The position numbers and the translations under genes are program-made. The notes beneath the pieces were generated by a model. That model had not been told where the DNA came from, did no database searches, and was given only the letters and a program-made list of their open reading frames with translations. This document shows positions 19,118 to 36,267 of a stretch of 36,267 bases of DNA, in pieces (the first letter of the stretch is position 1; each line of letters begins with the position of its first letter). Source of the DNA: Thiotrichaceae bacterium (GTDB lineage: Bacteria > Pseudomonadota > Gammaproteobacteria > Beggiatoales > Beggiatoaceae); assembly GCA_029939505.1 (NCBI GenBank), contig JAOZSV010000019.1, positions 1 through 36,267 of the forward strand, given 5' to 3'.

Positions 19118-21520
19118 TCATTTTAACCAGTTTCCAATCAGTGTAAAAGAAGACCAAAAATAGGGATGCTGATAATAATCGCTTTTTATCATGGCTTTTT
19201 GGGTTTCTTGTAAAGCTTTTGCTTTCGATAGCCCTTTACTGATGTTTTCATAAAAAATCGGCATAAATCGGGTAGTAAAATCTGGCTTGACTTTCCAGAG
19301 AGTCGCAACAGCACTTTGTGCACCAGCACGGAGGGCAACACCGCCTAAACCTAATGCGGCTCGATCATCTCCCAGTGCAGTTTCACAGGCACTTAGCGTG
19401 ATCAGGTTCAGGAGAGTGTCGTGGATTCGATTGAGCGTAAGTAAATCTTCAAATGGTTCTAGTTCTAAAGGACAAGCTTGGCTCATCAGGATGAAACTAT
19501 TGTTGATATCGGCTTCAAAAACCGCATGAGAAGAAATATGGATCATAGAATAACCGGTTTCAATCAATTTTTCCTTTAGATTGGTTTCAGTAAAATCTTG
19601 ATTCAGTAATTCTACCGATTTAGAAATGTGCTTTTTAATGCCTTCCATTTCATCTGTCGTATCCAATCTACTAAGGTTATAACCTCGTATGTTGACGGGT
19701 TCTTCTAAATCTAAGCCCGTCAGTAATATAGACTGATTAGTCGGTTCTTGTTCAGAAGTTACCCTTAAAGTTAAACCGGGTACAACCGCTAGCGCATAGT
19801 GCTCAATAAGGTAATCTTTACCATCGTGGAGTGCTGCTATCGGCATAGTGCGTAATTGACCATCTGGTACTAAGACTAAAGTTTCAATATCTTGTAAGTG
19901 GTTTGATTCCTTCAGAGGGTGGATGAGCCAATAGTATAAATTTTGGGCGTGTTTTTTAAATTTGTGATACAAATGCTCTCCATGATAGAGTTCATGGCGA
20001 AGATGATAGATTTCATCTTCCAATTTTTGGCGATTCGTTTCGGTAACGGATATAAGTGTCATACCGCCTGCTTTGTGCAGTAATAGTTCAAGCCTATCTT
20101 TAAGCATAATGGGATAAAGTACGGCAGTCTCTTTTTCTAGCTTAATTTCAGTCAGGGATATCTGATTTTTAATGACACACTCGTTTTGAAAATAATCAAG
20201 CAATTCGGCGGATTTTAATTTTTCCAGCGTGTCTTGTAGTTTTTTGAGACAATCTGCGGGTTGTTCCTGGAGACGACAGATGGCTTCTTTTTCCTCTAGT
20301 GAAAAGCGAGAAGCGTATGTTAATAACAATTCAGTAAATTCATAAAATAATGCACTGACTTGTTCACGGAATGAGGAACGAAACGTTCTGTAAATTTTGG
20401 ATAAGTCATAACGGATCGACCATAAAGTGTCTATTGCTTGTTTATAGGCTAAGGCGGATTTTGCGTGTTCGCCTTGTTCTTGGAAGATTGAAGCCATTTG
20501 CCACTGCCAATAATAAAGTAATTCAGGCAGTTCTTGGGCAAAAAAAACAGCCTGGCGTGTCAGGTTCAAAGCTTCTTGATAGCGTTTTTCATGTTGGTAA
20601 AGTTGGCCCTTATAGCCTAGTGCTTGAGAGATACCCGCCCTATCATTCGTTTGTTGGGCTAAGTGCCATGCTCTTTTCAACACCTCATAAGCTTTGCCCC
20701 GTAAGGTATTGTATTCAGCTGTCGAAAAATGCTGATTGCTTAAAATGATAAGCCGTCCTAGTCGTAACAGGGCTTGAATTTTTTCTGGAGAAAGTTCTAA
20801 ATCTTGAGTTTGTTCCAATAAATTAAACAGGGCTTGTTTAATGATATGGAAATCCTTATGCGAATCATTTTTTTGCAAATTATCTATAGCCATTTGCATA
20901 AAGTTGAGCGACGCTTTAACAGCTAGGAGATTGTTTTTTGCCTGAGTCGCTAACTCGGCACTTTGACGATAGTATGTTTCACGAAAAACCTCCGAGGTTT
21001 CCAAAACCTCGGAGGTTTGGCTCCAAACATTTTTCTGAAAGTCTATACATAGTCTCCGAAAATGAGGGAAACGTTTAGTTATTTCATCTTTTCGATAGGT
21101 GGCACAGACATTTCCTAAGTTGTTCAGTGCGACTGCGGCAATGGCCGGCTGTTTTAGCTGGCTTGCCTGGTTTATACTTTGTTCTAAAAGGACAACCGCT
21201 TTCTCAATTTTGCCAAGCATAAAGTAGGCATGACCCAGGCTGCCTAAAAGAGTCGCATAGAGGGCCTTTTCTTCTGATGTTTTTTGTAGCGCGAAGCAGA
21301 GTGCTTGTATAGACTTTTTATAATGTCCTGAGTGTTGGTATGCCTCAGCCTGATAAAGCAGTGTTTTTCCACTGAGGGCTTGGGCTTCTATCGCTATTGC
21401 TTTGTTATCAAGCACTTCTTCGCAATCCTGTCCGATTTCTGCCGCAGTTAACGGGGTATGATTAGCCAAAAAAATACTCAAAAGGAGCAGAGAACCCGCA
21501 ATATTTTTCCAAAGCATCAT
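19118..21520 (-). CDS. Exported TPR-CHAT protease
   Basis: The 800-residue product has a signal peptide (hydrophobic core about residues 9-26), a long helical TPR region (about 50-390) and a C-terminal CHAT domain (about 470-800). CHAT domains are caspase/separase-clan cysteine peptidases. The catalytic pair is visible as H665 in IHISSHAVFE and C712 in LSACETALGD, and the domain ends with the usual HPYFWSSFTLIG. It should therefore be an active protease acting outside the cytoplasmic membrane. It starts 2 bp after the stop of the exoprotein gene and is the last gene of the sigma/anti-sigma/exoprotein operon. This suggests that the exoprotein or its export partner is a substrate (inference). 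A 33-bp palindrome inserted in frame (20986-21018) adds a TSEVLETSEVF segment near residue 170, apparently in a TPR linker. Confidence 0.88.
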   Translation of the reverse strand: MMLWKNIAGSLLLLSIFLANHTPLTAAEIGQDCEEVLDNKAIAIEAQALSGKTLLYQAEAYQHSGHYKKSIQALCFALQKTSEEKALYATLLGSLGHAYFMLGKIEKAVVLLEQSINQASQLKQPAIAAVALNNLGNVCATYRKDEITKRFPHFRRLCIDFQKNVWSQTSEVLETSEVFRETYYRQSAELATQAKNNLLAVKASLNFMQMAIDNLQKNDSHKDFHIIKQALFNLLEQTQDLELSPEKIQALLRLGRLIILSNQHFSTAEYNTLRGKAYEVLKRAWHLAQQTNDRAGISQALGYKGQLYQHEKRYQEALNLTRQAVFFAQELPELLYYWQWQMASIFQEQGEHAKSALAYKQAIDTLWSIRYDLSKIYRTFRSSFREQVSALFYEFTELLLTYASRFSLEEKEAICRLQEQPADCLKKLQDTLEKLKSAELLDYFQNECVIKNQISLTEIKLEKETAVLYPIMLKDRLELLLHKAGGMTLISVTETNRQKLEDEIYHLRHELYHGEHLYHKFKKHAQNLYYWLIHPLKESNHLQDIETLVLVPDGQLRTMPIAALHDGKDYLIEHYALAVVPGLTLRVTSEQEPTNQSILLTGLDLEEPVNIRGYNLSRLDTTDEMEGIKKHISKSVELLNQDFTETNLKEKLIETGYSMIHISSHAVFEADINNSFILMSQACPLELEPFEDLLTLNRIHDTLLNLITLSACETALGDDRAALGLGGVALRAGAQSAVATLWKVKPDFTTRFMPIFYENISKGLSKAKALQETQKAMIKSDYYQHPYFWSSFTLIGNWLK
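20986..21018. repeat. Palindrome inserted in frame in the CHAT gene
   Basis: AAACCTCCGAGGTTT and AAACCTCGGAGGTTT flank a short CCA-type centre, forming a near-perfect palindrome. On the coding strand it encodes a repeated TSEV motif (QTSEVLETSEVF), which breaks the surrounding TPR-like helix pattern. The CCTCGGAGG type is distinct from, but organised like, the ACCTGACAGGT palindrome in the adjacent exoprotein gene. Confidence 0.7.
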
Positions 21521-21522
21521 TT

Positions 21523-24465
21523 TTAATCACCATGTCCACACCCAAATAGGGGTTTAGTTAAGGAAAAATTTCCATCAAATAAATTTGATTCAATCCTCTT
21601 TTTCTCAGTGTCTTGAGGGCGTTTACCCTCAAGGAAAAAACTAGTCCAAGGCGTTTCCGATAGATTTTTTAGGGCAACCTTGTGATGCCCTTTGTTAAGA
21701 AAGGTGTTGGCTATCGTGCGAGGTGTACAACCTTCTTTGAATAATTGAGACGTATCCAGAAAATTGATGGGGAGGGTAAACAGTCCTTCCATCACGTTAA
21801 TTTCTGGGGTATTAATTTGGATTTCGCCATCTATACCTAATTGTGAGGAAGCATTTATGGCTCTTCTCAGAGGAGATTCAAAAATACCTTGGATTGTGTT
21901 GTTATAAATACCGGTGGTTGTGATGTCGATATTGCCGCCCCTGCCTTCGTAGGCTTGAGCGATAATCTTGCTGTTATCAAGTACGATGAATTGAGGGGCA
22001 AGAGTAATATTGCCGCCATCACCTTTTTCGGCAAAAACACTGGTGATAATTCCACTGTGTATTAAGGAAAGATAACCAGGGGAAGTAATATGTATATTAC
22101 CTCCCTCAGCTTTATCTGCTGATGTTTTGATAAAACTATTTTGCATGATTAATTTATCTTTTACATTGATTACTACATCACCCGCATCACCTTGCCCTAA
22201 AGAACCACTTTCCTCATAACCAATACTTTCTGAAGTTATTTCTGCGCTATTATCAAGAAATAATTGTCCTGCTGTTAGTTCAATTGTGCCACCTTTACCG
22301 GCATTTTCATTTATGCCAAACGTAATTGCTGCTAATGAACTCGAAACTCCATTATTACCTTTTCCAGAAAGAGTAACAGGGCCACTTACCATAATTTTTA
22401 TATCACCGCCTTGACCAGAACCAAAAGTCACAGTACTTATCAAAGCCCCATTTTCAATTTTTAATTCCTTCGCTTCTAATATAATATCTCCAGCATTTCC
22501 TGTATTATTAGTTCGAGCAATTGAGCTTGTAAAGATACCACTACTATTGCCAGAAAGTGTGACAGAATTTGCCCGAATTTCTATTGTACTACTATGTCCA
22601 GGGCCAGATGTCCCAGCACTGATTTCTGTACCTTCTTTGAGAATTAAATTTCCAACTTCTAAAATAAGATTGCCGGCATCACCTGCATATTCAGCATCAG
22701 ATTCAGTCTCCGTACTAATTCCACTGTAATATTCCATCCCATTTCTTCGATCTTTGTCTTTACCTGATAGGATTATTTCCTTAGCAACTTTAATGTAAAT
22801 ATCACCACCTTGTCCACCTCCGAGATTTGAAGCATGTATTTGCCCACCATCATTCAGATACAACTGTTCTGCTTTTACAGTAATTGTACCACAGTCTCCT
22901 GCATTTTTCGCACGACTATTTGAGTCGGAGCTAATCAAAGTACCAAGACCATCAAAGTCTTTGCCAGATATATGGATTGGACCATTTACCAACATTGTTA
23001 TATTACCGCCTCGACCAGAACCAAAAGTAGAAGTACCTATTTTTATACCATCTTCTAAACGTAATTCTCCTGCCTCCAATAAAATATTTCCTGCATCACC
23101 AGTATTATTGCCTTCAACTGCAGACGAGGTAAGAATACCACTGTAAAACTTCTCTACTGTACCAGACATGCTGACTAAGCCAGATACCTGAATTTTTACA
23201 TTGCCACTTTTGCCTGTTCCTCTAGTAAGCGTGTTTATAATGGCACCATCTTGTAAAAATAATTGTTTTGCTTGCAGCACAATGTCACCCACTTTACCGC
23301 TATTTTCAAATTTCCCTGCACCTGTAATAATAAGGGTAGGTACTCCAGCTTCATCTTCTTCACCACCTATCACAATGGAATCCGCCACATTAATTTTTAT
23401 ATCTCCTCCATGTCCAGATTCAAATACTCTACTTGATAATCGCCCCTTCATAACCGTTAATTCATCAGTTTCTATGTCTATACCTATACCGTCTGCTGCT
23501 CCGAGACTATGAGTTTCTACTCTACTGTTATATAGTTCAAATCGCCCTCCACGAATATAAACTGCGCCACCACCTTCACCACTTGTACTCACTTTTGTAT
23601 TATTGATAGTGATTAGTCCACGTTGTGCTTCTGCACTGAGCTTTAATCCAAATTGGTTCGAGACGACTACTTCACCACGAGAAGCAACACTAGCAAGGTT
23701 AATTCTTCCAAATTCCGCAGAAAGTTCAGTGTTAAACGTTACCCCATCATCATAAACGGGTGGTTCACCATTCATGCGTAAATCACCACCAATCAACGAC
23801 AAAGTTTTACCCTCAGAGACAGACAATTCTGTATCTTGAACCGTAATCGCCGCCGGCGTATCTGTTAAAAATCCAAACGCTTCAACCGGCGCAACCGTCA
23901 ACGAGCTATTATTTGGATAACGCACATTAAATTCCCCACCATCACTCAAACGCAACGTGTCGGCAGTGCTGGCATGAAAACTCCCTTGCACGTCTAAACT
24001 CGCGCCCTCACCAAACATAATCCCATAAGGATTCAGAAAATACATATCGGCATTGGGAATAGTTGAACGCAATAACCCGTTAATATGTGAGGGATTACCG
24101 CCCGTGACTCGACTAATGATATTGTGAACATTATGAGGACCGGAAAAAGTCGCACTTTCACCGGTGTTAATGTTGAAGTGGCTAAAACTCTGGAATAAAT
24201 TACCACCGTGCTGTTGACCGAGTTCAGCACCGATTTGGTAATGGGGGCCTTCTAAAGCACCCCCAAATCCTAAAGTACCATCCAGTGTCACTTCTGCATA
24301 AGCGAGTGAGGCCAGTATACTGAAAAACAGTACATTACAGCTTTTCAGATAAATATTTTGGTATAAAGACCTGACAGGTTTTGGAAACCTGTCAGGTCTG
24401 AGAACTTTATTTTTCTGAAAAGCTATACAACTAACGGATAATTGAAAATTATGGAATTTCATCAT
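21523..24465 (-). CDS. Filamentous-haemagglutinin-like exoprotein (two-partner-secretion TPS domain)
   Basis: The 980-residue product has a long N-terminal leader ending SLAYA (cleavage near 57), then a TPS/haemagglutination-activity domain (about 58-190). Hallmarks are FSHFNINTGESATFSGP, IISRVTGGNPSHINGLL and NADMYFLNPYGIMFGEGA. The rest is a right-handed beta-helix of degenerate GDAGNIxLEA / GGDIxIxV repeats. The C-terminal part carries two cysteines (EGCTPR and LFGCGHGD). Such proteins are exported through a TpsB outer-membrane pore, but none is encoded in the window. The gene overlaps the anti-sigma gene by 17 bp and is followed 2 bp later by the CHAT gene, so it is part of that operon. 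The leader contains an inserted repeat (24339-24424). A surface structure or adhesin is inferred. Confidence 0.88.
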   Translation of the reverse strand: MMKFHNFQLSVSCIAFQKNKVLRPDRFPKPVRSLYQNIYLKSCNVLFFSILASLAYAEVTLDGTLGFGGALEGPHYQIGAELGQQHGGNLFQSFSHFNINTGESATFSGPHNVHNIISRVTGGNPSHINGLLRSTIPNADMYFLNPYGIMFGEGASLDVQGSFHASTADTLRLSDGGEFNVRYPNNSSLTVAPVEAFGFLTDTPAAITVQDTELSVSEGKTLSLIGGDLRMNGEPPVYDDGVTFNTELSAEFGRINLASVASRGEVVVSNQFGLKLSAEAQRGLITINNTKVSTSGEGGGAVYIRGGRFELYNSRVETHSLGAADGIGIDIETDELTVMKGRLSSRVFESGHGGDIKINVADSIVIGGEEDEAGVPTLIITGAGKFENSGKVGDIVLQAKQLFLQDGAIINTLTRGTGKSGNVKIQVSGLVSMSGTVEKFYSGILTSSAVEGNNTGDAGNILLEAGELRLEDGIKIGTSTFGSGRGGNITMLVNGPIHISGKDFDGLGTLISSDSNSRAKNAGDCGTITVKAEQLYLNDGGQIHASNLGGGQGGDIYIKVAKEIILSGKDKDRRNGMEYYSGISTETESDAEYAGDAGNLILEVGNLILKEGTEISAGTSGPGHSSTIEIRANSVTLSGNSSGIFTSSIARTNNTGNAGDIILEAKELKIENGALISTVTFGSGQGGDIKIMVSGPVTLSGKGNNGVSSSLAAITFGINENAGKGGTIELTAGQLFLDNSAEITSESIGYEESGSLGQGDAGDVVINVKDKLIMQNSFIKTSADKAEGGNIHITSPGYLSLIHSGIITSVFAEKGDGGNITLAPQFIVLDNSKIIAQAYEGRGGNIDITTTGIYNNTIQGIFESPLRRAINASSQLGIDGEIQINTPEINVMEGLFTLPINFLDTSQLFKEGCTPRTIANTFLNKGHHKVALKNLSETPWTSFFLEGKRPQDTEKKRIESNLFDGNFSLTKPLFGCGHGD
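24339..24424. repeat. 86-bp MITE-like insertion within the exoprotein leader sequence
   Basis: AGCTTTTCAGA at 24339-24349 and TCTGAAAAGCT at 24414-24424 are inverted ends. Between them sits the palindrome GACCTGACAGGTTT/AAACCTGTCAGGTC (24367-24399). It is translated as part of the exoprotein N-terminus (about residues 14-43), placing a basic segment rich in Arg, Lys and Pro before the hydrophobic core of the signal peptide. Confidence 0.65.
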
Positions 24466-25033
24466 ATTTAAACCTCACGACGGCTTGGTCATACGAATTT
24501 GGAGGGGGAAGTTTTCTATCATAACGCGCCAATAGTTGCGTTAATTTTTGATATTGCAAGGCTGATTGCTGAGAAAATTTAAATATCCAGGTATTATTTT
24601 CTTGTTTGTGGGTAAATTGAATACCTTCCACCTGTAAAGTTTGGTAAAAATGAGCCGTTTCTGTTTTTGAAGCGACTATATCATTTATAAAATGATTATC
24701 AGGCGATTTTTCCACTGATGGTCGCCCAACCTGTTTTCCAGTCAACCAACCCTGATATTGGATAATAGAAACAGGTATGATTAAAATAGCTAATATAGTA
24801 ATTATCGCATAAACAGGGCGGAACTGGATCGGGTATTTATATGTTTGCTTGACTGGTTTTGGAAAACGCAAAGGGGGTAAATGTCGTCGATTTTGCTGAA
24901 CGTATAAAGCCGCCCGTAGGGCATTTGCACTTTTAGTCACTTCTGGAACAGCATCCGGCACAGATTCACCGCCGAGTATATTGAACCAATCTTGATCATC
25001 TTTACTCCACTCTTCATTTTTATTAGACATCAT
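24449..25033 (-). CDS. Putative anti-sigma factor, single transmembrane segment
   Basis: The 194-residue protein has a cytoplasmic N-terminal region (about 1-72), one hydrophobic segment (about 74-91, YAIITILAILIIPVSII) and an extracytoplasmic C-terminal region of about 100 residues. I chose ATG 25033 because AGGAG lies 7 bases upstream and it overlaps the sigma stop as ATGA; an upstream ATG at 25051 lacks such a site. I do not recognise the family, and no zinc-binding ZAS motif (HxxxCxxC) is visible. The anti-sigma role is inferred from the translationally coupled position directly after an ECF-like sigma gene, the topology and a (W)x9W-rich acidic N-terminus. Its last 17 bp overlap the exoprotein start, so expression of all these genes is likely linked. 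Confidence 0.6.
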   Translation of the reverse strand: MMSNKNEEWSKDDQDWFNILGGESVPDAVPEVTKSANALRAALYVQQNRRHLPPLRFPKPVKQTYKYPIQFRPVYAIITILAILIIPVSIIQYQGWLTGKQVGRPSVEKSPDNHFINDIVASKTETAHFYQTLQVEGIQFTHKQENNTWIFKFSQQSALQYQKLTQLLARYDRKLPPPNSYDQAVVRFKYDEIP

Positions 25034-25791
25034 ATTTCTCCTCTTATGCATGCTTTCTTACAATGTTGTTCTGCATCGGGCAAGCCTTTTTTTCGACATC
25101 GACTCACATCTTGACGGATTGCACTTTCTGATTTACCGATTTTCTGACTTATTTCTTGAGCTGTAAAACCTAATTGCTTTAATTTGATGATTAACCAACA
25201 AAGGGTTTCTAAACCATATCTTTTTTGGTAGGCTCCCAAATCCTGATAGTGTTTCAATTCACGACGGCACTGTACTAACTGTTTTTTGGTTTCACGCACC
25301 GTTTGGGAAAGCATATTAGCAATATCTTCTATAGATAGAAGAGACTTAAGTTCAGATAATGTGACAAGCAAAGGGCAAAGGGCCTTGGGATAATCTTGTT
25401 GATACTGAGTCAGGGCTTTTTCCATACAACGCTGTAAACAAAGCATTTTTTCCATCATGTCAAGTGAATCAATCTGTTTATTTAATGGAATGGGATCGCT
25501 TTGTTCATTGTCGCCATATTGTTCTGTGAAAGAGATCGTTTCTTTGATTTTTTTTATCTCTTTAAAAGCTAAGTTCTTAGCTGCCCTAAAAATATAGGCT
25601 TCTTGATTAGAAACTTTTCCAATAAGGGGCATGACATCTAAAAAAGTTTGCTGGACCATATCTTCAGCCGTTTCCGCTGAAAAACGAAATTGAGATTGAA
25701 GATAGTAGGCGATATGTTGCCCTAGCTCCGTATAGAGTCTTTCAATTTCTGCTTGCGGGTCATTTTTTTTTCGTTTGGGTAATAAAAACAT
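25030..25791 (-). CDS. ECF-like RNA polymerase sigma factor with an extra C-terminal HTH
   Basis: The 253-residue protein has a sigma-2 region (about 13-85) with AEDMVQQTFLDVMP and AYIFRAAKNLAFKEIKK. A sigma-4-like region (about 110-182) contains SIEDIANMLSQTVRETKKQL. After it comes a second helix-turn-helix (about 205-237, LGFTAQEISQKIGKSESAIR), which an ordinary ECF factor of about 190 residues would not have. It starts the four-gene operon with the anti-sigma, exoprotein and CHAT genes and presumably directs their transcription, including its own. The start ATG has GAGG about 9 bases upstream. A palindrome at 25818-25844 sits in the 5' untranslated or promoter region. Relation to anti-sigma is inferred from the ATGA coupling. 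Confidence 0.8.
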   Translation of the reverse strand: MFLLPKRKKNDPQAEIERLYTELGQHIAYYLQSQFRFSAETAEDMVQQTFLDVMPLIGKVSNQEAYIFRAAKNLAFKEIKKIKETISFTEQYGDNEQSDPIPLNKQIDSLDMMEKMLCLQRCMEKALTQYQQDYPKALCPLLVTLSELKSLLSIEDIANMLSQTVRETKKQLVQCRRELKHYQDLGAYQKRYGLETLCWLIIKLKQLGFTAQEISQKIGKSESAIRQDVSRCRKKGLPDAEQHCKKACIRGEI

Positions 25792-25817: not shown

Positions 25818-25844
25818 ACCTGACAGGTTTTTAAAACCTGTCAG
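25818..25844. repeat. ACCTGACAGG palindrome upstream of the sigma gene
   Basis: ACCTGACAGGTTTT pairs with AAAACCTGTCAG, starting 27 bp before the sigma ATG. The same palindrome type is inserted in the exoprotein leader of this operon (24367-24399) and occurs as a half copy at 393-407. It could be an operator, but its presence inside coding sequence argues for a dispersed repeat. Confidence 0.55.
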
Positions 25845-25858
25845 CTCTATTGTTTTTA

Positions 25859-26052: not shown

Positions 26053-27129
26053 TTAAGGAATATAACGATTTATCCTCTGAAAAAGTTTATCTTTGCCTTT
26101 TATAACCGGTTCTTGCGCTTTTTCAGAACACTGCCTAGAATGTTCAAGAACGCTATCGCGGGTTTCATCAAAAACCTTCAATAAATTGACTTTGACCGAT
26201 TTCTGTTTTGCCCGTTTTAACGCTTGCAAAAAGAAAAAGGTAAACCTGCCACCCTTGACCCCTTTTTCATATTTTCCCGTTTTGTGACATTGTTCACCCA
26301 ATTCTACAGCCTTTTGTCCTTCCTTGGTCGCTGATAACAATACCCCTCTAATCGGATCTAAGGTTGCACCAATATGGGAAGGAACTTTTCTTTTTTTAAG
26401 CCTTTTTCCTTTCAAAGCTTTAATACGCTCCGTTGAACCTTTTCCTTTATCTAAACCTTCTGAAAAACAAACATCCATCACGGTCAAAATATGAGGCGTT
26501 TTGTTGTCTATAGCCGCAATCAGCTTTGAAAATTCATCATCTCGTATCATAAATCCTTCAATTCCATTTTCATCTATTTTTTTTGATTTGGAATAAGTCA
26601 CAAAAAATTCATCCAGCCCATCTTTTTCGTCCTTATTATCATCATACCACTGATAACCATGACCAGAATAATAAATGATCACTAAATCATCAGCATTCAC
26701 CATTTTTTCTAAACGCTTCAAAGCGCGTCTAAATTCCGATTTAGAAACATCTCTTAGCAGACATACTTGACTTTTATCAACTTGAAAAAGCCCTTGCATC
26801 GCTTGAGCAAAATTTTCAGCATCATAAGCTGTTTCTTTTAATTTGTTCTTACCTTTACCCGTATTTGCACCCATCGCTAAAATAAAAACGGGATCACCTT
26901 TTAAAGGCAGCCAGCAATCATTAGCTGAATCATGATAAGGAGAATCACCAAAGAAACCATCCATAATATCGAAAAGCCCTTTTGATGATTCTGTTTTTTT
27001 GGCAATGGCAGGTATTGGGGAAGCCATTTCTAAAGCCCTATCCCTAATATTAGTTTTTTGGCACCCCATTAGGCTAAAAACGATGAATCCTAAAAAAAAT
27101 AATCGTTTATTTTTCAATTGGTTAGTCAT
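26053..27129 (-). CDS. Caspase-like (C14) lipoprotein
   Basis: The 358-residue protein begins with a lipoprotein signal peptide: a hydrophobic core followed by lipobox LMGC, with C23 as the acylated residue. I chose ATG 27129 because GGAGG lies 5 bases upstream; the in-frame GTG at 27162 has no such site. The C14 p20-type domain shows VFILAMGAN (first strand), H157 in YYSGHGYQW and C221 in MDVCFSEG, the caspase/metacaspase catalytic dyad. The protein should be an active cysteine protease anchored in a membrane and facing the periplasm; Ser at +2 or retention cannot be judged. It lies upstream of the sigma/anti-sigma/exoprotein/CHAT operon in the same direction, 261 bp away across a MITE. Partners are unknown. 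A role in processing surface proteins is a guess from context. Confidence 0.88.
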   Translation of the reverse strand: MTNQLKNKRLFFLGFIVFSLMGCQKTNIRDRALEMASPIPAIAKKTESSKGLFDIMDGFFGDSPYHDSANDCWLPLKGDPVFILAMGANTGKGKNKLKETAYDAENFAQAMQGLFQVDKSQVCLLRDVSKSEFRRALKRLEKMVNADDLVIIYYSGHGYQWYDDNKDEKDGLDEFFVTYSKSKKIDENGIEGFMIRDDEFSKLIAAIDNKTPHILTVMDVCFSEGLDKGKGSTERIKALKGKRLKKRKVPSHIGATLDPIRGVLLSATKEGQKAVELGEQCHKTGKYEKGVKGGRFTFFFLQALKRAKQKSVKVNLLKVFDETRDSVLEHSRQCSEKAQEPVIKGKDKLFQRINRYIP

Positions 27130-27248
27130 CATTACCTCCGTTAATATCAATTTTCTTGTCACACATTTGAGCTTTTTTGCTCTTTAATTATTATAGATGT
27201 TTGATAATGCCTTATCAACATTCAGGGCATAAAAACCACAAAATAATT

Positions 27249-28440: not shown

Positions 28441-28682
28441 GTGGGCAAACACGTGTGCAACAGCATTTCTATAAACCTCTTTTTCAGGGTAAATCTCTTG
28501 GTATTTTAACGTTTTGCCGTTGCACCAAAAAGACGTTTTCGATTCGAGTCGAGGCTAAAGTTTTTTTTGAAAAAAAAACGTTAAACGTTAGCCTCGACTA
28601 AAGTTTTTTCTTCAAAAAAACTTTAGCCTCGAATTTAGTTTTTTGAAAAAAAACTAAATCCTCGAAACCACCTACCCGGCTT
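28430..28682. repeat. About 253-bp composite repeat, right copy flanking the toxin-antitoxin pair
   Basis: It begins TAGCCAGGTAG inside the antitoxin stop region and has the same modules in the same order as 27483-27737. Differences include a shortened GGTGGGCAAAC start, an AAAGTTTTTTTTGAAAAAAA hairpin with a partly duplicated right arm (CGTTAAACGTTAGCC) and AAATCCTCG for AAACATCG in the last hairpin. Confidence 0.75.
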
Positions 28683-28683
28683 T

Positions 28684-28842
28684 GAACGTTTTTTGGAGTC
28701 CAACGCTTTAGCTTTGGACGTTTTTTGGAGTTCAACGCTTTAGCTTTGGACGTTTTTTGGAGTTCAACGCTTTAGCTTTGAACGTTTTTTGGAGTTCAAC
28801 GCTTTAGCTTTGAACGTTTTTTGGAGTTCAACGCTTTAGCTT
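28684..28842. repeat. Five tandem copies of a 32-bp unit
   Basis: The unit GAACGTTTTTTGGAGTTCAA followed by CGCTTTAGCTTT starts at 28684, 28716, 28748, 28780 and 28812. The first has GGAGTCC for GGAGTTC, and units 2-3 begin GGACG rather than GAACG. No spacers of unique sequence are present, so it is not a CRISPR array. The core is shared with 592-706 and 7355-7530. Confidence 0.85.
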
Positions 28843-28948
28843 CCCAGCATTTTAACTCTTGGCTAACTAAAAGACTGAGTCGTTACGGAAATTTTAAAAA
28901 AACTGCGGAATTGAGTGAAAAGATGTTAAAATAAATTATCAAAGGACT

Positions 28949-29626: not shown

Positions 29627-32600
29627 ATGAACCGAGATCTTAAAAAACGCGTCTTTGTCAAACGGGGCGCAAGTTCAATACCAGCCCGACAGCGATGGCA
29701 AAAGCATCTTGCCCAATGGCTAATAACGGGATTAATGCTACTCGGTATCAACAATTTAGCTTTTGCATGTTACGAGTCAGCATATACTTCACAAGTTGCC
29801 TACCTCAGTGAATTAGCTTTAGGTGATAATAATGCGGAATGTGTTACTTTTCCTTATTTGGGGAAGTATAGTAATCCGGCTCCTCAATTGCCTATATACC
29901 ATGCAGGTATTGATTTGAGAGCCGATGACGTTCCAACATATTCCATTGTTAAAGGTACTGTAAAATCTACAGGAGGTAGCTTCGGTAAGGTTGTCATAGA
30001 AACCGACTACAATGGTAGCAAAGCACGGGTGTTTTATCTGCATCTGGGTTCATTCAATGTCGCATCTGGTGACCAAGTTAATGTGGGAGACCTCATAGGA
30101 ACAACCGGGGAAGCGGGTACTGAAGGTTCGCCTCATTTACATATTGAAGTAAGGTATGATTACAATGGCACTTCAGCAGTGGGTAGAACAAGTTGCTCGG
30201 GCACTTGTGATACACAAGCTAAAGTTGAAGCAAAGACTGTTGCTCCGGAAGAAGTTTTAACTTCTCAATGCAAAAACGAGTGGTATAAAGGAAATGCCGG
30301 TGAACTTGTACGTGATTACAAAAACTATGGCATCATTTTTAATGGCTCCCAGGTCAATTATTGCCTTATTGATACAAGGTATAACTTTATTGCCATCCTA
30401 ATTCGTGCTTTGGAAACGATTGCCGGTAAGGATGATTTGAATGATCATGGCCCTTCTTACTTTATTGACGTAGCTGAGACGGAACAGTTTGGACGAGAAG
30501 TCTATAAAGCCGAAAATTTGGGTATTATTTCCAAACAAGCTGATCATAAATTCGAGCCAAATCGTGGCATCACGCGGATTGAGGCCCTCACTTTTACTGT
30601 GAGAACTTATGAAGCGATATGTGATGATGAGATTCAAATTCAAGTGCCTCCTTTTAAAGACCTTAATGAAGGAGGAGAATCTTGGATGCCTCAAATCATG
30701 AAGAAGGGTTATGCTCAAGGTTTAGTCAGTGGTCATGAGTATTTTAGACCTAATGAAATTGCACCACGTCATGAGTCCGTTGCCTTTGTTGATAAACTGA
30801 TTAGTCAAGTTAAACAATGTTCCTCTGATGATAATGTCACCATTTCTATTTCTTATACAGGTACTGGTGATGGAGAGGTAACAGTAGATTATTCAGGAAA
30901 CTCTGAAAATTGTTCCTCGTGTAGTACATCAATTTCAATTCCTAAAGGAACCCAAGTTGATGTTTCTGCTGAAGCTAATGCTAGTAGTCAATTTGTTGGT
31001 TGGGATATAACTAACTCTTGTCTCTATAACAATTCCAGTTCTACTTCTTTCGTTGCGAATAATAACTGTTCTATAATAGCAAAATTTGAGCAACAAGTAA
31101 CTGAGCAAGGAAAACTCAAAACTTCTACCTATGAAGATGGAATACCTAGTTCTACTGTGGTCCGCGTATCACCTGAAGGTGACAATTGTGGAGGCTCCTC
31201 TGGTCAGTGTTATCTCTATGACCAAAATACAGAGGTTGTTTTAAGAGCAGATACACCTGAAGGATATGACTTTGACAAATGGATAGGAGATGTATGCACT
31301 ACAGAAACTAGCCCACGGTGTGAAATTACAATAACGCCAATTTCAAACTTACAAGTAGGTGCTGTTTTTGTTAAGAAACAGATTTGTCCAAAAATAGCAG
31401 GGCAAATTACTTTGTCTGGTAGTCCGTTGTCAGGTATAAGAATGGATGGGCTGCCAAGTGTGACATGGACTGATAGCGATGGTAAATATTCGGTTTGTGT
31501 TGGTGAAGGATGGAGTGGAACTGTTAAGCCCTTTAAGGCTGGTTTTAGTTTTAACCCAACATCACGTCCCTATTCAAACGTGTCCAGTACCATTTCTTCA
31601 CAAAATTACACTGCGACGGCTAAAATCCACACAATCAAGGGCCAGGTCAATTTTAGTGGTAATGGTTTATCAAGCGTGGTTCTGAATGGTTTGCCAAGCA
31701 ATCCCATGACAAATTCCAATGGCGAATATTCCGTTACGGTGCCATTCCATTGGAATGGAACAGTGACACCACAAAAAACCGGTTATTCCTTTAGCCCATC
31801 TTCTCGAACATACGTGGAAAATGGTGCGAGCCGGTGGGAAGAAGACTATACCTCGGTTCAACAAACTGCCCAAATTTCTGGTAGAGTGACTTTTGGCGGA
31901 AGAGGACTTGCCAGCGTGTTGCTCAATGGATTTACTGGGAGTGTGTTAACTGATAGTAGTGGTTATTATTCTACCATCGTGCCTTATGGTTGGACGGGTA
32001 CCGTTTTGCCACAAAAGTCGGGCTATCAATTTTCACCCCTGCCCTATAACAATGTTAAGTCAAATAAATCCAATCAGAATTACACAGCCACTGAAAAGGC
32101 GGTAGGTTCTAGCCGTTTGTGGGTTGTGTCAACTGTGCAAGAATTGGAAAATGCTCAAACATGGGCAGAAAGTGGCGATATCATCCTCGTTAAACCGGGT
32201 ACCTATAAGGTTGGTTTGGAAGCCAATGAAAATGTCACGTTACTTTCTGAGGCTGGCCCTGAACAAACGATTATCCAGTTGGGTTCTGACTTTCGTATGA
32301 ATGAGCCGAACATGATCGTTGATGGATTTACGTTTGAAAGCTCATTTGATTATGAGATGATACAAATTCATGGTGGCACCAATGTTCAGTTGAAAAACTG
32401 CATCCTAAAACCCGCTGAGCATTTTGCTGTTCGACTTGAAAATGCTCATGATGTGCTGTTGGAAGGCAATAAGTTTGTGACATCATGGGGTGTGTCGATT
32501 AGAAGTAGTAACTCAACTGGAAGTCTGACAATTCGCAATAATCATTTTTCTTCTGGTAGTATACAAGGGGCTGGTAATTCAAACTTACAGGTCATTATTG

Positions 32601-35600
32601 AAAATAACTGGTTTGAAGGACTTGGTTATGCCCTTGCAATTGGTGCTGGATTTAAAAGTTTGACTATACGCAATAATGTCTTTGTGAAAAATAGTGTAGC
32701 CGCTGAAATTTCTGGACTCAGCGCAGTGATTGATCACAACACCTTTGTTGATAACTCAATAGGTGTAGACCTTAGATCAGAAGCATCGGCCACAATTACT
32801 AACAATATTTTCCAAGGCAATAGTAAGGGAATACAACGCTCAAGTGCGAAAGTTGTCACTGCACATCATCTTTTACATTGGGATAATAATTCCTTATGGT
32901 ATAAGAATTCTGGGCAGAAAATTGTCGATGATGCGACGATTTGGCATGGATATCCCAAATTTGTCAATTTGAATGGTGACTATCATCTTCAATGGAATTC
33001 ACCGGCTATTGGTAAAGGTGAAAATGGTAGCGATTTGGGTGCGTATGGTGGTTTGTATAGGAACCAATGGAATGATTCAGTACCGGGTAATCCAGCAAAT
33101 CCGCCGGCTTTGTCTAGTATTGATACTGGTTGTCCGGCTAACTTGAATATAGGAGATACCATTTATTGCTCGGCAAAAGCGTTATACGCTGGTGGATACT
33201 ATAGCAAGATTGAGAAAGTGGCACTCTGGACTTCTTCCAATCCTGCCGTACTCCAATTCCAAAGCGGGGGACAATTTGTCGCTCTAAAACCGGGTACGAC
33301 AACGGTCACAGTGACTTATGGTAGTCGTCAAAAGCAACACCCTGTCACGGTACTTAGCAGTAATTTGGCTCTTAATGCGGTGGGTACGCCTAATCCCGTT
33401 TTTCCGGGTAGTCAGTTGACATACGAGATTACTTATACCAATACTGGGCCAGGCATCGCTAAAAATGTGCAAATTTCTGCAACCTACGACACCAACACGA
33501 CTTTTGTGTCAGCGGAACCGACACCCAATAGTGGTACTAACCAGTGGAATATTGGAGACCTTGCTCCTAATGAGTCTGGCAATATCACGGTAAAGATTCA
33601 AGTCGCCGAAGGTTTGTCAGGAGAAAGTCAACTCACCAATACAGCAACCATTCAAGCAGATGCCATAAATCCGAAATTGGTGACTGAAAGTACAAAAGTC
33701 GAAGTACCTGTTGTAGCGGATACCGATGGTGATGGTATGCCGGATGATTTTGAAAATCAGTATGATTTCCTCAATCCACTTGATCCTTCAGATGCGTTTG
33801 CTGACCAAGATGGTGATGGCATCTCTAATTTGGATGAGTATAAGAATGGAACTGATCCAAGCGTTAGTAATTCGAGTACTACCAATTTATGTGTAAATAC
33901 CGCAGTTACGGGTATACCACAAATTGAATGTGAAGCTTTAGTTGCTCTTTATGAAAGTACAAACGGAGATAACTGGAAAAATAATTCTGGCTGGTTGAAG
34001 ACGAACACGCCTTGTAGTTGGTATGGTGTGACTTGTGGTGGTAATCATGTTACAGGTCTTGAGTTGTATAGTAATCAACTGAACGGAACGATTCCATCCG
34101 AATTAGGTAACTTGGTCAATTTGACATACATTTGGCTGTCCAGAAACCAGCTAAGCGGAACCATTCCATCCGAATTGGGCAACTTGGTCAATTTGACAAG
34201 CATTAGATTATATAACAACCAGCTAAGTGGAACCATTTCATCCGAATTGGGCAATTTGATTAATTTGACAAATATTAATTTAGTCAGCAACCAATTGAGC
34301 GGAACGATTCCATCCGAATTAGGTAATCTGGTCAATTTGACCTCTCTTTATTTGTACAACAACCGACTGAGCGGAACGATTCCATCTGAATTAGACAATC
34401 TGGTTAATTTGTCAGTCCTTAACCTAGATAGCAATCAATTGAGTGGAATTATTCCATCCGAATTAGGCAGCCTGGGTAATTTAACACAGCTCAATCTGAG
34501 TAATAATCAATTGAGTGGAAGCATTCCTTCTGAGTTAGGCAATCTGGTTAAATTAGCACTCTTTTACCTGAATAATAACCAATTGAGTGGAAGCATTCCT
34601 TCTGAGTTAAGCAATTTAAGTAATTTACAGTTGCTATGGTTTAATAGTACAGAACTATGTGAACCAATAGATATCGCTTTCCAAGAATGGTTAACAGGTA
34701 TTAATAATTTGCAAAGCACTGGTAAGAAGTGCAATTTTGATGCGGATAATGATGGGATACCTGATGATTATGAAAATCGGTATGATTTCCTCAATCCACT
34801 TGATCCTTCAGATGCGTCTGCTGACCAAGATGGTGATGGTATCTCTAATTTGGAAGAGTATCAAAATGGTACTAACCCAAATGATGTTGTTGTTACTCCA
34901 CCTAATCCGGGTGGCCCAGTGCTTCCTATGATCGTGTGGGGCAATCTCACTGAAAATGGGCAACCAATGCCAGTTGGAACAACCATTACTTTTCTAGTAA
35001 ATGATAGTGTGATTGGAGAAACAACTACACTCACCGCCGGAAAATTTAATCAAAATGGTATGTTGGGTGGCGATGTGCTGATTAATCAACACAGTGGCAA
35101 ACTGTCCTTTAAAGTGAATGGCGTAGATGTCACTGTTGAACAAATCACGCCTTCGACATCAAATAATGCCTCTTGTCCTACTGATGCTGATAATATTACC
35201 TTTGTCAGTGGTCAAAGTTGTCGCTATGACATTGCACTTTCTACGACTATTCCACCAGGTTTGGAAGAACCGGCTCAAGTGAGCTTAGTTGTCACGTCTA
35301 ACCCAACCCCCGTAGCGGGTCAAGACTTTGATATAACCTTCGGTGTTATGACAAACAGCTACAGTGTTGATAGTGAGCAATTCCGAATGGTATTTGACCC
35401 ACAAAAACTGGAAGCGAACAGTATCACAAGTAGCGGTGTATTAGATTTTCCGCTCATCAGTGAAATTAATAATACTGAAGGCTATATTAACTTTGCGGAA
35501 GGTAGTTTCTTTAATTCGCCTCCAACTGAGGACTTTGAGTTAGTCACGATTAACTTTACGGCAAAAGAAGCCACAGACAGTACGGTGCTGCAATTTGATT

Positions 35601-36267
35601 CGGCACAATGTCAAGCCGCTTTTGAAGGTAAAGCCCTGACACAAGGTTGTGAAGAAGTGACTTTGGTGATTAAAGAACCCACTTTAGCCTGTCAAGTGGC
35701 ATTGGAAGGTCGTCAACCCGCACCAGATGGCAGTTGGATAACCCCCTTGAGATTGTCAGGTGCCTTATCGCAGGAAGTGGTTAGCGATGAGTCAGGGGCT
35801 TGTGAGTTTGAGAGATTATCGGAGGGTGAACACACGATTTGCATCAAAGGTCCCAATGACTTGCAAAACAAGATCGACATCAGTTTGCCTTTAGCAGACG
35901 ATAACGCGGTGATTGATTTTGGGCTGTTATTAGAAGGGGATATTAATGATGATAACGCCATTGAGTTGACTGATTTTTCACTTTTGCGAAGCAGTAACGG
36001 TTTATGTCAAACCAATGCGAACTTTAACAATAACGCTGATTTAAATGTTGACGGCTGTGTCGATTTCAATGATGCGTTGCTCTTGAGAAGCCATTTCCTG
36101 AAAGTGGGGCAAGAATGTTCGACAGTTAAGTCTCGCCGTGTGGTTAGTCGTCACTTGAGAACGACACGAAATGGTAAAACCACGGATACGGTCAGTTTGC
36201 TGACTAGCCCTATTACTGTCGGTGTAGAGCCGGGTAGTATTATTGAATTTGATATTATCATCTTTAC
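29627..36267 (+). CDS. Giant secreted multidomain protein: M23, SLH-like, LRR, cohesin-like, dockerin-like (partial, runs off window)
   Basis: At least 2213 codons are open in one frame to the window end. An extended signal peptide ends LAFA (cleavage near 47). An M23 peptidase domain has H92/D96 (HAGID) and H170/H172 (HLHIEV), the zinc and catalytic residues. Next come SLH-like repeats (about 220-400; FEPNRGITRIEA, FRPNEIAPRHES), two bacterial repeat domains (405-583), three carboxypeptidase-regulatory-like repeats (588-823), a parallel beta-helix (828-1151), a BIG2-like domain (1158-1241) and DUF11 (1244-1358). A TSP3-like calcium segment (1364-1415) is followed by an LRR domain of about eight 24-residue repeats (1422-1685) and a second TSP3-like segment (1705-1753). 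A cohesin-like domain (about 1883-2015), a dockerin-like pair (about 2104-2165) and the start of another cohesin-like domain close the visible part. It is probably a surface scaffold or adhesin with cell-wall-cleaving ability. Stop not in window. Confidence 0.85.
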   Translation, partial: MNRDLKKRVFVKRGASSIPARQRWQKHLAQWLITGLMLLGINNLAFACYESAYTSQVAYLSELALGDNNAECVTFPYLGKYSNPAPQLPIYHAGIDLRADDVPTYSIVKGTVKSTGGSFGKVVIETDYNGSKARVFYLHLGSFNVASGDQVNVGDLIGTTGEAGTEGSPHLHIEVRYDYNGTSAVGRTSCSGTCDTQAKVEAKTVAPEEVLTSQCKNEWYKGNAGELVRDYKNYGIIFNGSQVNYCLIDTRYNFIAILIRALETIAGKDDLNDHGPSYFIDVAETEQFGREVYKAENLGIISKQADHKFEPNRGITRIEALTFTVRTYEAICDDEIQIQVPPFKDLNEGGESWMPQIMKKGYAQGLVSGHEYFRPNEIAPRHESVAFVDKLISQVKQCSSDDNVTISISYTGTGDGEVTVDYSGNSENCSSCSTSISIPKGTQVDVSAEANASSQFVGWDITNSCLYNNSSSTSFVANNNCSIIAKFEQQVTEQGKLKTSTYEDGIPSSTVVRVSPEGDNCGGSSGQCYLYDQNTEVVLRADTPEGYDFDKWIGDVCTTETSPRCEITITPISNLQVGAVFVKKQICPKIAGQITLSGSPLSGIRMDGLPSVTWTDSDGKYSVCVGEGWSGTVKPFKAGFSFNPTSRPYSNVSSTISSQNYTATAKIHTIKGQVNFSGNGLSSVVLNGLPSNPMTNSNGEYSVTVPFHWNGTVTPQKTGYSFSPSSRTYVENGASRWEEDYTSVQQTAQISGRVTFGGRGLASVLLNGFTGSVLTDSSGYYSTIVPYGWTGTVLPQKSGYQFSPLPYNNVKSNKSNQNYTATEKAVGSSRLWVVSTVQELENAQTWAESGDIILVKPGTYKVGLEANENVTLLSEAGPEQTIIQLGSDFRMNEPNMIVDGFTFESSFDYEMIQIHGGTNVQLKNCILKPAEHFAVRLENAHDVLLEGNKFVTSWGVSIRSSNSTGSLTIRNNHFSSGSIQGAGNSNLQVIIENNWFEGLGYALAIGAGFKSLTIRNNVFVKNSVAAEISGLSAVIDHNTFVDNSIGVDLRSEASATITNNIFQGNSKGIQRSSAKVVTAHHLLHWDNNSLWYKNSGQKIVDDATIWHGYPKFVNLNGDYHLQWNSPAIGKGENGSDLGAYGGLYRNQWNDSVPGNPANPPALSSIDTGCPANLNIGDTIYCSAKALYAGGYYSKIEKVALWTSSNPAVLQFQSGGQFVALKPGTTTVTVTYGSRQKQHPVTVLSSNLALNAVGTPNPVFPGSQLTYEITYTNTGPGIAKNVQISATYDTNTTFVSAEPTPNSGTNQWNIGDLAPNESGNITVKIQVAEGLSGESQLTNTATIQADAINPKLVTESTKVEVPVVADTDGDGMPDDFENQYDFLNPLDPSDAFADQDGDGISNLDEYKNGTDPSVSNSSTTNLCVNTAVTGIPQIECEALVALYESTNGDNWKNNSGWLKTNTPCSWYGVTCGGNHVTGLELYSNQLNGTIPSELGNLVNLTYIWLSRNQLSGTIPSELGNLVNLTSIRLYNNQLSGTISSELGNLINLTNINLVSNQLSGTIPSELGNLVNLTSLYLYNNRLSGTIPSELDNLVNLSVLNLDSNQLSGIIPSELGSLGNLTQLNLSNNQLSGSIPSELGNLVKLALFYLNNNQLSGSIPSELSNLSNLQLLWFNSTELCEPIDIAFQEWLTGINNLQSTGKKCNFDADNDGIPDDYENRYDFLNPLDPSDASADQDGDGISNLEEYQNGTNPNDVVVTPPNPGGPVLPMIVWGNLTENGQPMPVGTTITFLVNDSVIGETTTLTAGKFNQNGMLGGDVLINQHSGKLSFKVNGVDVTVEQITPSTSNNASCPTDADNITFVSGQSCRYDIALSTTIPPGLEEPAQVSLVVTSNPTPVAGQDFDITFGVMTNSYSVDSEQFRMVFDPQKLEANSITSSGVLDFPLISEINNTEGYINFAEGSFFNSPPTEDFELVTINFTAKEATDSTVLQFDSAQCQAAFEGKALTQGCEEVTLVIKEPTLACQVALEGRQPAPDGSWITPLRLSGALSQEVVSDESGACEFERLSEGEHTICIKGPNDLQNKIDISLPLADDNAVIDFGLLLEGDINDDNAIELTDFSLLRSSNGLCQTNANFNNNADLNVDGCVDFNDALLLRSHFLKVGQECSTVKSRRVVSRHLRTTRNGKTTDTVSLLTSPITVGVEPGSIIEFDIIIF
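33731..33850 (+). repeat. TSP3-like calcium-binding segment, copy 1 (direct repeat in the giant gene)
   Basis: It encodes DGDGMPDDFENQYDFLNPLD, then a DQDGDGISNLDEY loop. It is nearly identical to 34751-34870, at an offset of exactly 1020 bp (340 codons). The leucine-rich repeat block lies between the two copies. Confidence 0.85.
34751..34870 (+). repeat. TSP3-like calcium-binding segment, copy 2
   Basis: It encodes DGIPDDYENRYDFLNPLDPS, then DQDGDGISNLEEY. A roughly 50-base central stretch (TATGATTTCCTCAATCCACT onward) is identical to copy 1. The two copies frame the LRR domain. Confidence 0.85.

Follow-up and report, generated by a model that had tools for sequence, protein, structure and literature searches.

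A conserved caspase, sigma factor, putative anti-sigma factor and protease gene set in the Beggiatoaceae as a possible envelope sigma switch

Background

What might be regulated by a locus that encodes, almost end to end, a sigma factor of the extracytoplasmic function (ECF) type, a small protein with one membrane helix, a TPS-domain exoprotein and a TPR-CHAT protein? Such a locus lies on the minus strand of a 36,267-nucleotide stretch of DNA from a Thiotrichaceae bacterium of the family Beggiatoaceae (assembly GCA_029939505.1, contig JAOZSV010000019.1, positions 1 to 36,267), referred to here as the window. A first-pass annotation of the sequence described four of its genes and proposed that the sigma factor turns on a surface fibre together with a protease that matures or destroys it. 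The analysis presented here adds the gene for an exported caspase, finds the neighbourhood conserved within the family, and gives about an even chance to the reading that the set is a switch at the envelope in which proteases of the caspase clan set the sigma factor free and the fibre is a partner, sensor or output.

Gene content and catalytic residues

The set is transcribed in the order caspase, sigma factor, 194-residue protein, TPS exoprotein and TPR-CHAT protein (Table 1). The four open reading frames (ORFs) of the first-pass annotation were all found on the minus strand where it had placed them, and its account of their junctions was accurate: an ATGA overlap between the ORFs of the sigma factor and the 194-residue protein, a 17-bp overlap between the latter and the TPS gene, and a 2-bp gap between the TPS and CHAT genes. 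The caspase gene, 261 bp upstream of the sigma gene, was absent from that account. When the 7-kb region was block-shuffled 100 times, the longest frame to arise had 202 codons, compared with 253, 194, 980 and 800 residues for the actual frames. Support for the 194-residue ORF therefore comes from its homologues, because its length alone is unremarkable. The window contained no Rfam match.

The CHAT domain (197 bits, Pfam cut-off 24) has a predicted proteolytic role. Its dyad H665/C712, described earlier as intact, consists of the correct residues, which are invariant in 15 aligned TPR-CHAT sequences (the window's included). The caspase has the dyad H157/C221 and a hydrophobic, lipoprotein-like N-terminus. 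The export signals claimed for the TPS and CHAT products are borne out by hydropathy scores, which place a hydrophobic segment at each N-terminus; in the exoprotein this segment precedes the TPS domain (124 bits in Pfam). Structures in the PDB were searched with a CHAT-only profile, because every hit listed for the full TPR-CHAT profile, 60 out of 98 in the PDB, was a TPR-type chain. The sole match of the CHAT-only profile at E<=1 was 7zoq_A, named 'TPR-CHAT' (9.1e-5), which we take to be a type III-E protein.

Table 1 Features of the window, the gene set first
Feature	Position	Strand	Evidence
Exported caspase, Peptidase C14, 358 aa, first gene of set	26053-27129	-	Pfam 1.6e-17, dyad H157/C221
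ECF-type sigma factor (P0001), 253 aa	25030-25791	-	TIGR02937, region-4 profile
Putative membrane anti-sigma factor (P0002), 194 aa	24449-25033	-	Model, family alignment, hydropathy
TPS-domain exoprotein, 980 aa	21523-24465	-	Pfam TPS 1.2e-35; TIGR01901 above cut-off
Exported TPR-CHAT protein, 800 aa, dyad H665/C712	19118-21520	-	Pfam CHAT 5.2e-58
Sigma-70-type promoter-like site (TTGATA, 17 nt, TATAAT, 11/12) upstream of caspase	27190-27218	-	Consensus match only
Palindromic repeat copies	20988-21018 (in CHAT), 24369-24399 (in TPS), 25818-25848 (caspase-sigma gap)		Repeat search
MITE (miniature inverted-repeat transposable element)-like inverted repeats, caspase-sigma gap	25855-25885/26026-26056		31 nt, 87%
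MITE-like inverted repeats, caspase-sigma gap	25894-25917/25987-26010		24 nt, 96%
Tandem array, 32-base period	28647-28874		Repeat search; no Rfam match
Three ORFs, 1215, 564, 699 aa	9749-18069	+	DUF4785_3rd match each; last two share similar start
Very large ORF, open at window end	29627-36265	+	M23 peptidase, SLH-like, beta-helix, leucine-rich-repeat matches

Conservation of the set within the Beggiatoaceae

Neighbourhoods (numbered here with the prefix L) were collected around profile matches and their genes assigned by family profiles; the family searched comprises 25 genera, as many as GTDB is stated to have for the Beggiatoaceae (PMC11172852). The profile of the 194-residue protein family matched in 20 of the 42 genomes of the order, all of them in the one family Beggiatoaceae. 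In a class sample it matched 2 of 369 genomes, both among the 4 Beggiatoaceae in the sample, and none of the 365 other genomes, with at most 8 first-look candidates scored per genome.

Altogether 42 ORFs in 41 loci match this anti-sigma profile, with a sigma gene directly upstream or fused in 33/42 and a caspase gene further upstream in 17/42. Because loci L025-L035 had been fetched by a sigma match, which makes sigma adjacency there circular, the 28 rows found via the anti-sigma profile (L085-L111) are quoted separately: 21 have the sigma gene immediately before the anti-sigma gene or fused to it, 10 have a caspase gene farther upstream, and 16 are followed within 700 bp by a protease-type gene (8 TPR-CHAT, 1 M48 and 7 CHAT-like or STAND). 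Two of the 28 rows (L085) are pieces of one gene. L094 was scored as having a sigma factor since both proteins lie in one frame, and L095 as having none only because its sigma ORF overlaps by 67 bp and the overlap limit was 60 bp.

The full order of caspase, sigma factor, anti-sigma factor and CHAT protein is present at eight loci (L026, L086, L087, L097, L098, L102, L104 and L105). In the window and at L025, L041, L086, L087 and L099, a same-strand TPS gene comes within 4 kb after the anti-sigma gene; a divergent TPS gene stands beside the set at L105, and a convergent TPS-CHAT fusion at L030. At five loci (L097, L098, L102, L103 and L104) CHAT comes next after the anti-sigma gene, and that strand has no TPS gene within 4 kb. 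Elsewhere the sigma and anti-sigma genes are followed by an exported-looking M48-type peptidase in place of CHAT (L028, L031, L035 and L085, those of L035 and L085 assigned by similarity to L028).

The recurring core is caspase, sigma factor, anti-sigma factor and protease, and the TPS gene is optional. The four-gene set of the first-pass annotation is borne out in that the neighbourhood of sigma factor, anti-sigma factor, exoprotein and CHAT protein recurs, and needs revision in that the stable core contains the caspase and can do without the exoprotein. That annotation had proposed a search for co-occurrence in the Beggiatoaceae and other genomes, with random scatter in related genomes as the outcome that would speak against it; a conserved order, with gene overlaps and fusions, was found over many genera. 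The same conservation makes it very improbable that the genes are together by chance or history without joint function, even in a family so rich in both gene types that CHAT is found in 42/42 genomes and TPS in 35/42, with 19 CHAT and 9 TPS matches in the window's own genome.

The sigma factor and its putative membrane partner

TIGR02937 (sigma70-ECF) matches the sigma factor at family level (45.6 bits, cut-off 42.9), while the Pfam models for regions 2 and 4 score below cut-off. The profile of its family matches the sigma-E structure (4.7e-14). Region 4 is present twice, at residues 113-185 (1.2e-11) and 198-235 (8.8e-7), a duplication overlooked in the first-pass annotation; a second region 4 is also found in the sigma factors of L025, L026, L096, L098 and L103, and that of L108 likewise has two stretches. 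Searches for the sigma factor found no relative in a genome-contig collection and no match among plasmid records. A DNA pattern for QDW[LF][DEA][LF][LF]AG matched 17 stretches. Sigma and anti-sigma genes were confirmed in 2 of them (L113 and L114, both from Parabeggiatoa, a genus placed by NCBI under Thiotrichaceae), caspase and CHAT matches only in L125 (also Parabeggiatoa), a lone sigma match in L128, and none of these in the remaining 13.

The 194-residue protein has a single hydrophobic segment by hydropathy. In its structure model (mean pLDDT, the predicted local distance difference test score, 79.8) this segment forms a membrane helix at residues 74-97, preceded by helices at 11-20 and 30-49 and followed by a ferredoxin-like C-terminal domain at 114-189 with the order beta-alpha-beta-beta-alpha-beta. 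Seven Lys/Arg residues lie in the 30 residues preceding the helix and 3 in the 20 following it, so the N-terminal part is probably cytosolic. In the family alignment the N-terminus is conserved around the motif KDDxDWLxxLAGKxVPDAxPxTVxEAxALRxAL. The protein had no Pfam match and, in NCBIfam, one sub-cut-off match to an unrelated family, and a Foldseek search gave no match at E<=0.001. With VIA-align, Z reached 5.6 for the C-terminal domain only, with the periplasmic domains of PrgH, PulL and EpsM and designed proteins among the rows; as modelled, the fold of this domain is simply a common ferredoxin-like arrangement.

The gene lies directly beside the sigma gene, with the ATGA overlap, and the same adjacency or fusion recurs in 21 of the 28 rows found without the aid of a sigma match. 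From these sequence features the one-helix protein is a putative anti-sigma factor, which would bind the sigma factor. Two paralogues in the window's own genome (L092 and L096) have region 4 fused to the anti-sigma N-terminus, with 81% identity over the common part, and at L094 the sigma factor and its partner share one frame, perhaps as a result of assembly or an indel. Such fusions argue for physical contact, without proving it.

Membrane anchor and location of the neighbouring protein

Several paralogues of the putative anti-sigma factor have a C-terminal DUF1822 part, which scores above the Pfam cut-off (L027 and L032, 1.5e-17; L088, 6e-14; L095, 1.5e-6), and no membrane helix; the window's protein itself has no DUF1822 part by Pfam scan. 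These paralogues adjoin CHAT-nSTAND1 or CHAT-NB-ARC proteins that have no evident export signal. Among 33 anti-sigma proteins, 22 are anchored with an exported neighbour and 8 are unanchored with a non-exported neighbour (P 1.7e-7 for the 30 that are partnered); the other 3 are anchored with no neighbour of the classes considered. Counted as clusters at 40% identity, the pattern is 9 vs 2 (P 0.018). Partner location in this test was assigned by the author from a hydropathy listing and taken as given, and anchors and clusters were computed. As far as these predictions go, a membrane anchor accompanies an exported neighbour and is absent with a non-exported one, as expected if the protease acts on the C-terminal domain of its partner.

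The DUF1822 paralogues also bear on another explanation, in which the set is a cell-death or conflict module like the ECF-DUF1822-EACC2-caspase sets, with the caspase and CHAT protein as effectors, the sigma factor as a transcriptional arm, and an anti-sigma factor that is not cut. Neighbourhoods of ECF sigma factors and DUF1822 are predicted conflict systems in the accessible part of one paper (PMC8195603), and in the Beggiatoaceae the DUF1822-bearing paralogues do stand beside CHAT-nSTAND1 or CHAT-NB-ARC proteins. However, the caspase, CHAT protein and exoprotein of the window look exported and would be ill suited to killing from inside. With PADLOC, no defence-family match was obtained at E<=0.001 for the sigma factor, the anti-sigma factor or the TPS exoprotein, nor for 8 further ORFs of the window, and the caspase and the TPR part matched only generic caspase (6.7e-7) and TPR (7e-4) models. 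We consider a conflict module unlikely.

Proposed release of the sigma factor by proteolysis

The presence of these genes, their order and conservation, the catalytic residues, the topology predicted for the products and the fusions are established; from these we infer sigma inhibition, cleavage, a trigger and targets along the following lines. The one-helix anti-sigma protein would hold the ECF-type sigma factor in check through its N-terminal part. In response to some condition of the envelope or surface, the exported caspase and TPR-CHAT protein would cleave the anti-sigma protein in its periplasmic ferredoxin-like domain. Further degradation of the anti-sigma protein would then free the sigma factor for transcription of its targets, plausibly including its own gene set. 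The TPS exoprotein, present in some copies, would be a partner, which might either act for the CHAT protease at the surface or be made as part of the response.

One type of sigma/anti-sigma pair is adjoined by differing protease classes (TPR-CHAT, M48 and CHAT-like or STAND). Because the protease class varies beside one pair, and because the Csx29/Csx30 and CalpL/CalpT systems described below offer precedents, protease-gated release of the sigma factor seems the likeliest function. A narrower version, in which the exported caspase-clan proteases make the first cut in the anti-sigma factor and the TPS exoprotein, at some loci fused to the CHAT domain, is the surface sensor through which contact or damage at the surface leads to transcription, would make the set a CRISPR-free envelope counterpart of the Craspase signalling arm, and is rather unlikely in that specific form.

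Several observations weigh against release by proteolysis. None of the anti-sigma families described in Pfam or NCBIfam is matched by the window's partner protein, and by the author's criteria the sigma factor was not found in 7/28 rows. Both fused copies appear to be damaged: what remains of the L092 sigma factor is a separate 101-aa ORF, and the fused ORF of L096 stops before the membrane helix. A structure model of the natural fusion of region 4 and anti-sigma factor in L092 (mean pLDDT 71, predicted template modelling score, pTM, 0.36) was too weak for a readable interface. Because 7 of the 8 unanchored proteins belong to one sequence cluster, the anchor pattern reflects few independent switches. 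Moreover, the author's pattern detects no H/C dyad in the CHAT-nSTAND1 neighbours, which may not be proteases, and in L141 (Nostoc) an exported-looking CHAT protein is paired with a DUF1822 protein that has no evident membrane helix. Finally, no convincing two-block motif was shared upstream of 17 caspase-first and 12 sigma-first sets. The top upstream word of the caspase-first sets was AT-only (7/17, compared with <=6 in shuffles), and A-rich words reached 6/12 in the sigma-first sets (<=5 in shuffles). These upstream regions gave no motif in favour of autoregulation of the set. Promoter-like sites of the same quality as that upstream of the caspase gene number 35 in the region, with 23.6 expected.

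The TPS exoprotein and its link to CHAT proteins

In the explanation that follows from the first-pass annotation, a surface fibre is expressed under the sigma factor along with a CHAT protease, which would mature, shed or destroy the fibre, and the one-helix protein senses the state of the envelope. The TPS-CHAT link on which this depends is real, as judged by adjacency and fusions. The window's own genome has 4 TPS-CHAT pairs within 6 kb among its 9 TPS genes (0.39 expected, P 7e-4, the window's pair included), and such pairs also occur without a sigma factor. TPS and CHAT lie in one frame at L030 and in G033:C467 (1179-aa frame), and one annotated Acaryochloris gene (L133 4776-10046) is matched by both the TPS and the CHAT query parts, an apparent fusion. 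Both genes recur, too, on cyanobacterial plasmid regions. Across the family, however, the excess is modest: among the 150 best-listed TPS rows and as many CHAT rows there are 11 pairs within 6 kb vs 2.1 expected, 7/11 on one strand, and 4 within 3 kb vs 1.2 expected. Since the five sigma-anti-sigma-CHAT loci listed above have no same-strand TPS gene within 4 kb, and four loci have an M48 peptidase instead of CHAT, fibre processing is not the common role of the protease, and the claim that it matures or destroys the fibre is not supported in that general form. STAND-type genes replace CHAT at other loci as well. The fibre-centred explanation is, on balance, somewhat unlikely.

The set contains no ShlB-type gene for a cognate pore, and the single ShlB match in the window's own genome lies on another contig (C345:4322-5323). 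This one match stands beside 9 TPS exoproteins in that genome; one pore may serve many exoproteins, or other pores may be too divergent for the model. At L036, also in the window's own genome, TPS and CHAT flank a DUF928 gene that is on the other strand.

Cyanobacteria are reportedly the distant group in a gene exchange proposed for a relative of Beggiatoa. In most of 16 cyanobacterial regions, chosen by the author from the best matches, genes for TPS, CHAT, DUF928, CHASE2, DUF1822, sigma-like and ShlB/BamA-type proteins occur together on plasmids; L130 and L133 have neither a sigma nor a DUF1822 gene. The accessible part of one report proposes that a Beggiatoa relative and a group far from it in phylogeny have exchanged genes (PMC5108060). 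At L129, L135, L136, L137 and L139 a protein of 504-548 residues is encoded directly before the DUF1822 gene. It is annotated as 'sigma-70 family' in L135 and as hypothetical in the other four, and that of L129 has a weak region-4 match (0.0035); divergent cyanobacterial sigma factors may thus have escaped annotation. The cyanobacterial sigma-like and DUF1822 proteins were also considered as homologues of the window's sigma factor and anchored partner, which the comparison did not support (probabilities 6.2 and 0.2).

Relation to known systems

In the sigma-E/RseA/DegS envelope stress response, the periplasmic domain of a single-pass partner is the target of a protease. The window resembles it in its single-pass partner with a periplasmic domain as the proposed target, and in the match of the sigma profile to sigma-E, and differs in that its proteases are of the caspase clan and are encoded within the set. 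The cyanobacterial sets (sigma-like, DUF1822, CHAT-CHASE2, DUF928, TPS, ShlB/BamA-type and CHAT) share with it the recurrence of sigma factor, partner, CHAT and TPS, but no membrane-anchored partner was seen in the regions examined.

Statements on the published systems that follow draw on the accessible parts of the papers cited. In type III-E CRISPR, the TPR-CHAT protease Csx29 cleaves Csx30, an inhibitor of CASP-sigma (PMC10028731). Craspase (Cas7-11, Csx29, Csx30 and CASP-sigma) is like the window in that a TPR-CHAT protein, an ECF-type sigma factor and a sigma partner are encoded together; unlike it, the window has an exported CHAT protein, a membrane-anchored partner and additional caspase and TPS genes. 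No Cas match was found at E<=0.001 in the 13 window ORFs scanned, the rest of the genome not having been searched for Cas7-11, and the window's sigma factor falls far below the cut-off of the III-E sigma model NF041236 (15.5 bits, cut-off 100). In another type III CRISPR system CalpL has an anti-sigma factor, CalpT, as the substrate that it cleaves (PMC11417357). The CalpL/CalpT/CalpS system likewise combines a protease, an anti-sigma factor and an ECF sigma factor, but CalpL, unlike the window's proteases, is a Lon-SAVED protein triggered by cA4 in a type III CRISPR context.

Sets of ECF sigma factor, DUF1822, EACC2 and caspase were predicted in 2021 (PMC8195603). They resemble the window in having a caspase, an ECF sigma factor and a third protein, and DUF1822 occurs in paralogues of the window's anti-sigma protein; in place of DUF1822 the window has a membrane helix and a ferredoxin-like domain, together with exported proteases and a TPS exoprotein. 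Its caspase scores far below the cut-off of the EACC1-associated caspase model (25.6 of 140 bits). Metacaspase-sigma70 operons of Myxococcus and others, listed in 2012 (PMC3501461), also join a caspase and a sigma factor in one operon, but they belong to other lineages, and CHAT, TPS and an anti-sigma partner are not mentioned in the accessible part of that paper.

The first-pass annotation knew of no characterised system with this gene set. As far as the literature searched goes, this is true of the exact set; related sets have been predicted (PMC8195603, PMC3501461), and the logic has been characterised in CRISPR systems (PMC10028731, PMC11417357). In the literature searched, mostly outside subscription journals and in part through partial texts, no account was found of an exported form of the set that includes an anchored partner together with CHAT and TPS. 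As far as this search goes, the predicted anchored partner family, its apparent link to DUF1822 and the anchor/location pattern appear to be new, as do the doubled region 4, the fusions of region 4 to the partner and the TPS-CHAT fusions.

If the proposed release is true, sigma release by a TPR-CHAT protein extends beyond CRISPR systems, and modules of this kind could have been a stock for the TPR-CHAT and sigma parts of type III-E CRISPR. Caspase homologues can be very numerous in giant sulfur bacteria: a single Thiomargarita cell has been reported to contain 59 metacaspase genes (PMC4853749, accessible part). In this module the membrane anti-sigma factor is a genetically linked candidate substrate for a caspase homologue and transcription by the sigma factor a candidate readout, both testable in an E. 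coli reporter.

Repeats within the gene set

Where the palindromic repeat of Table 1 lies in the CHAT frame it adds residues to the TPR part, and in the TPS frame it lengthens the exoprotein's N-terminal extension. Judged by sequence, these two copies look like in-frame insertions of a small repeat. The exact 25-base form of the repeat is present in 7 of 147 loci, some of which overlap one another.

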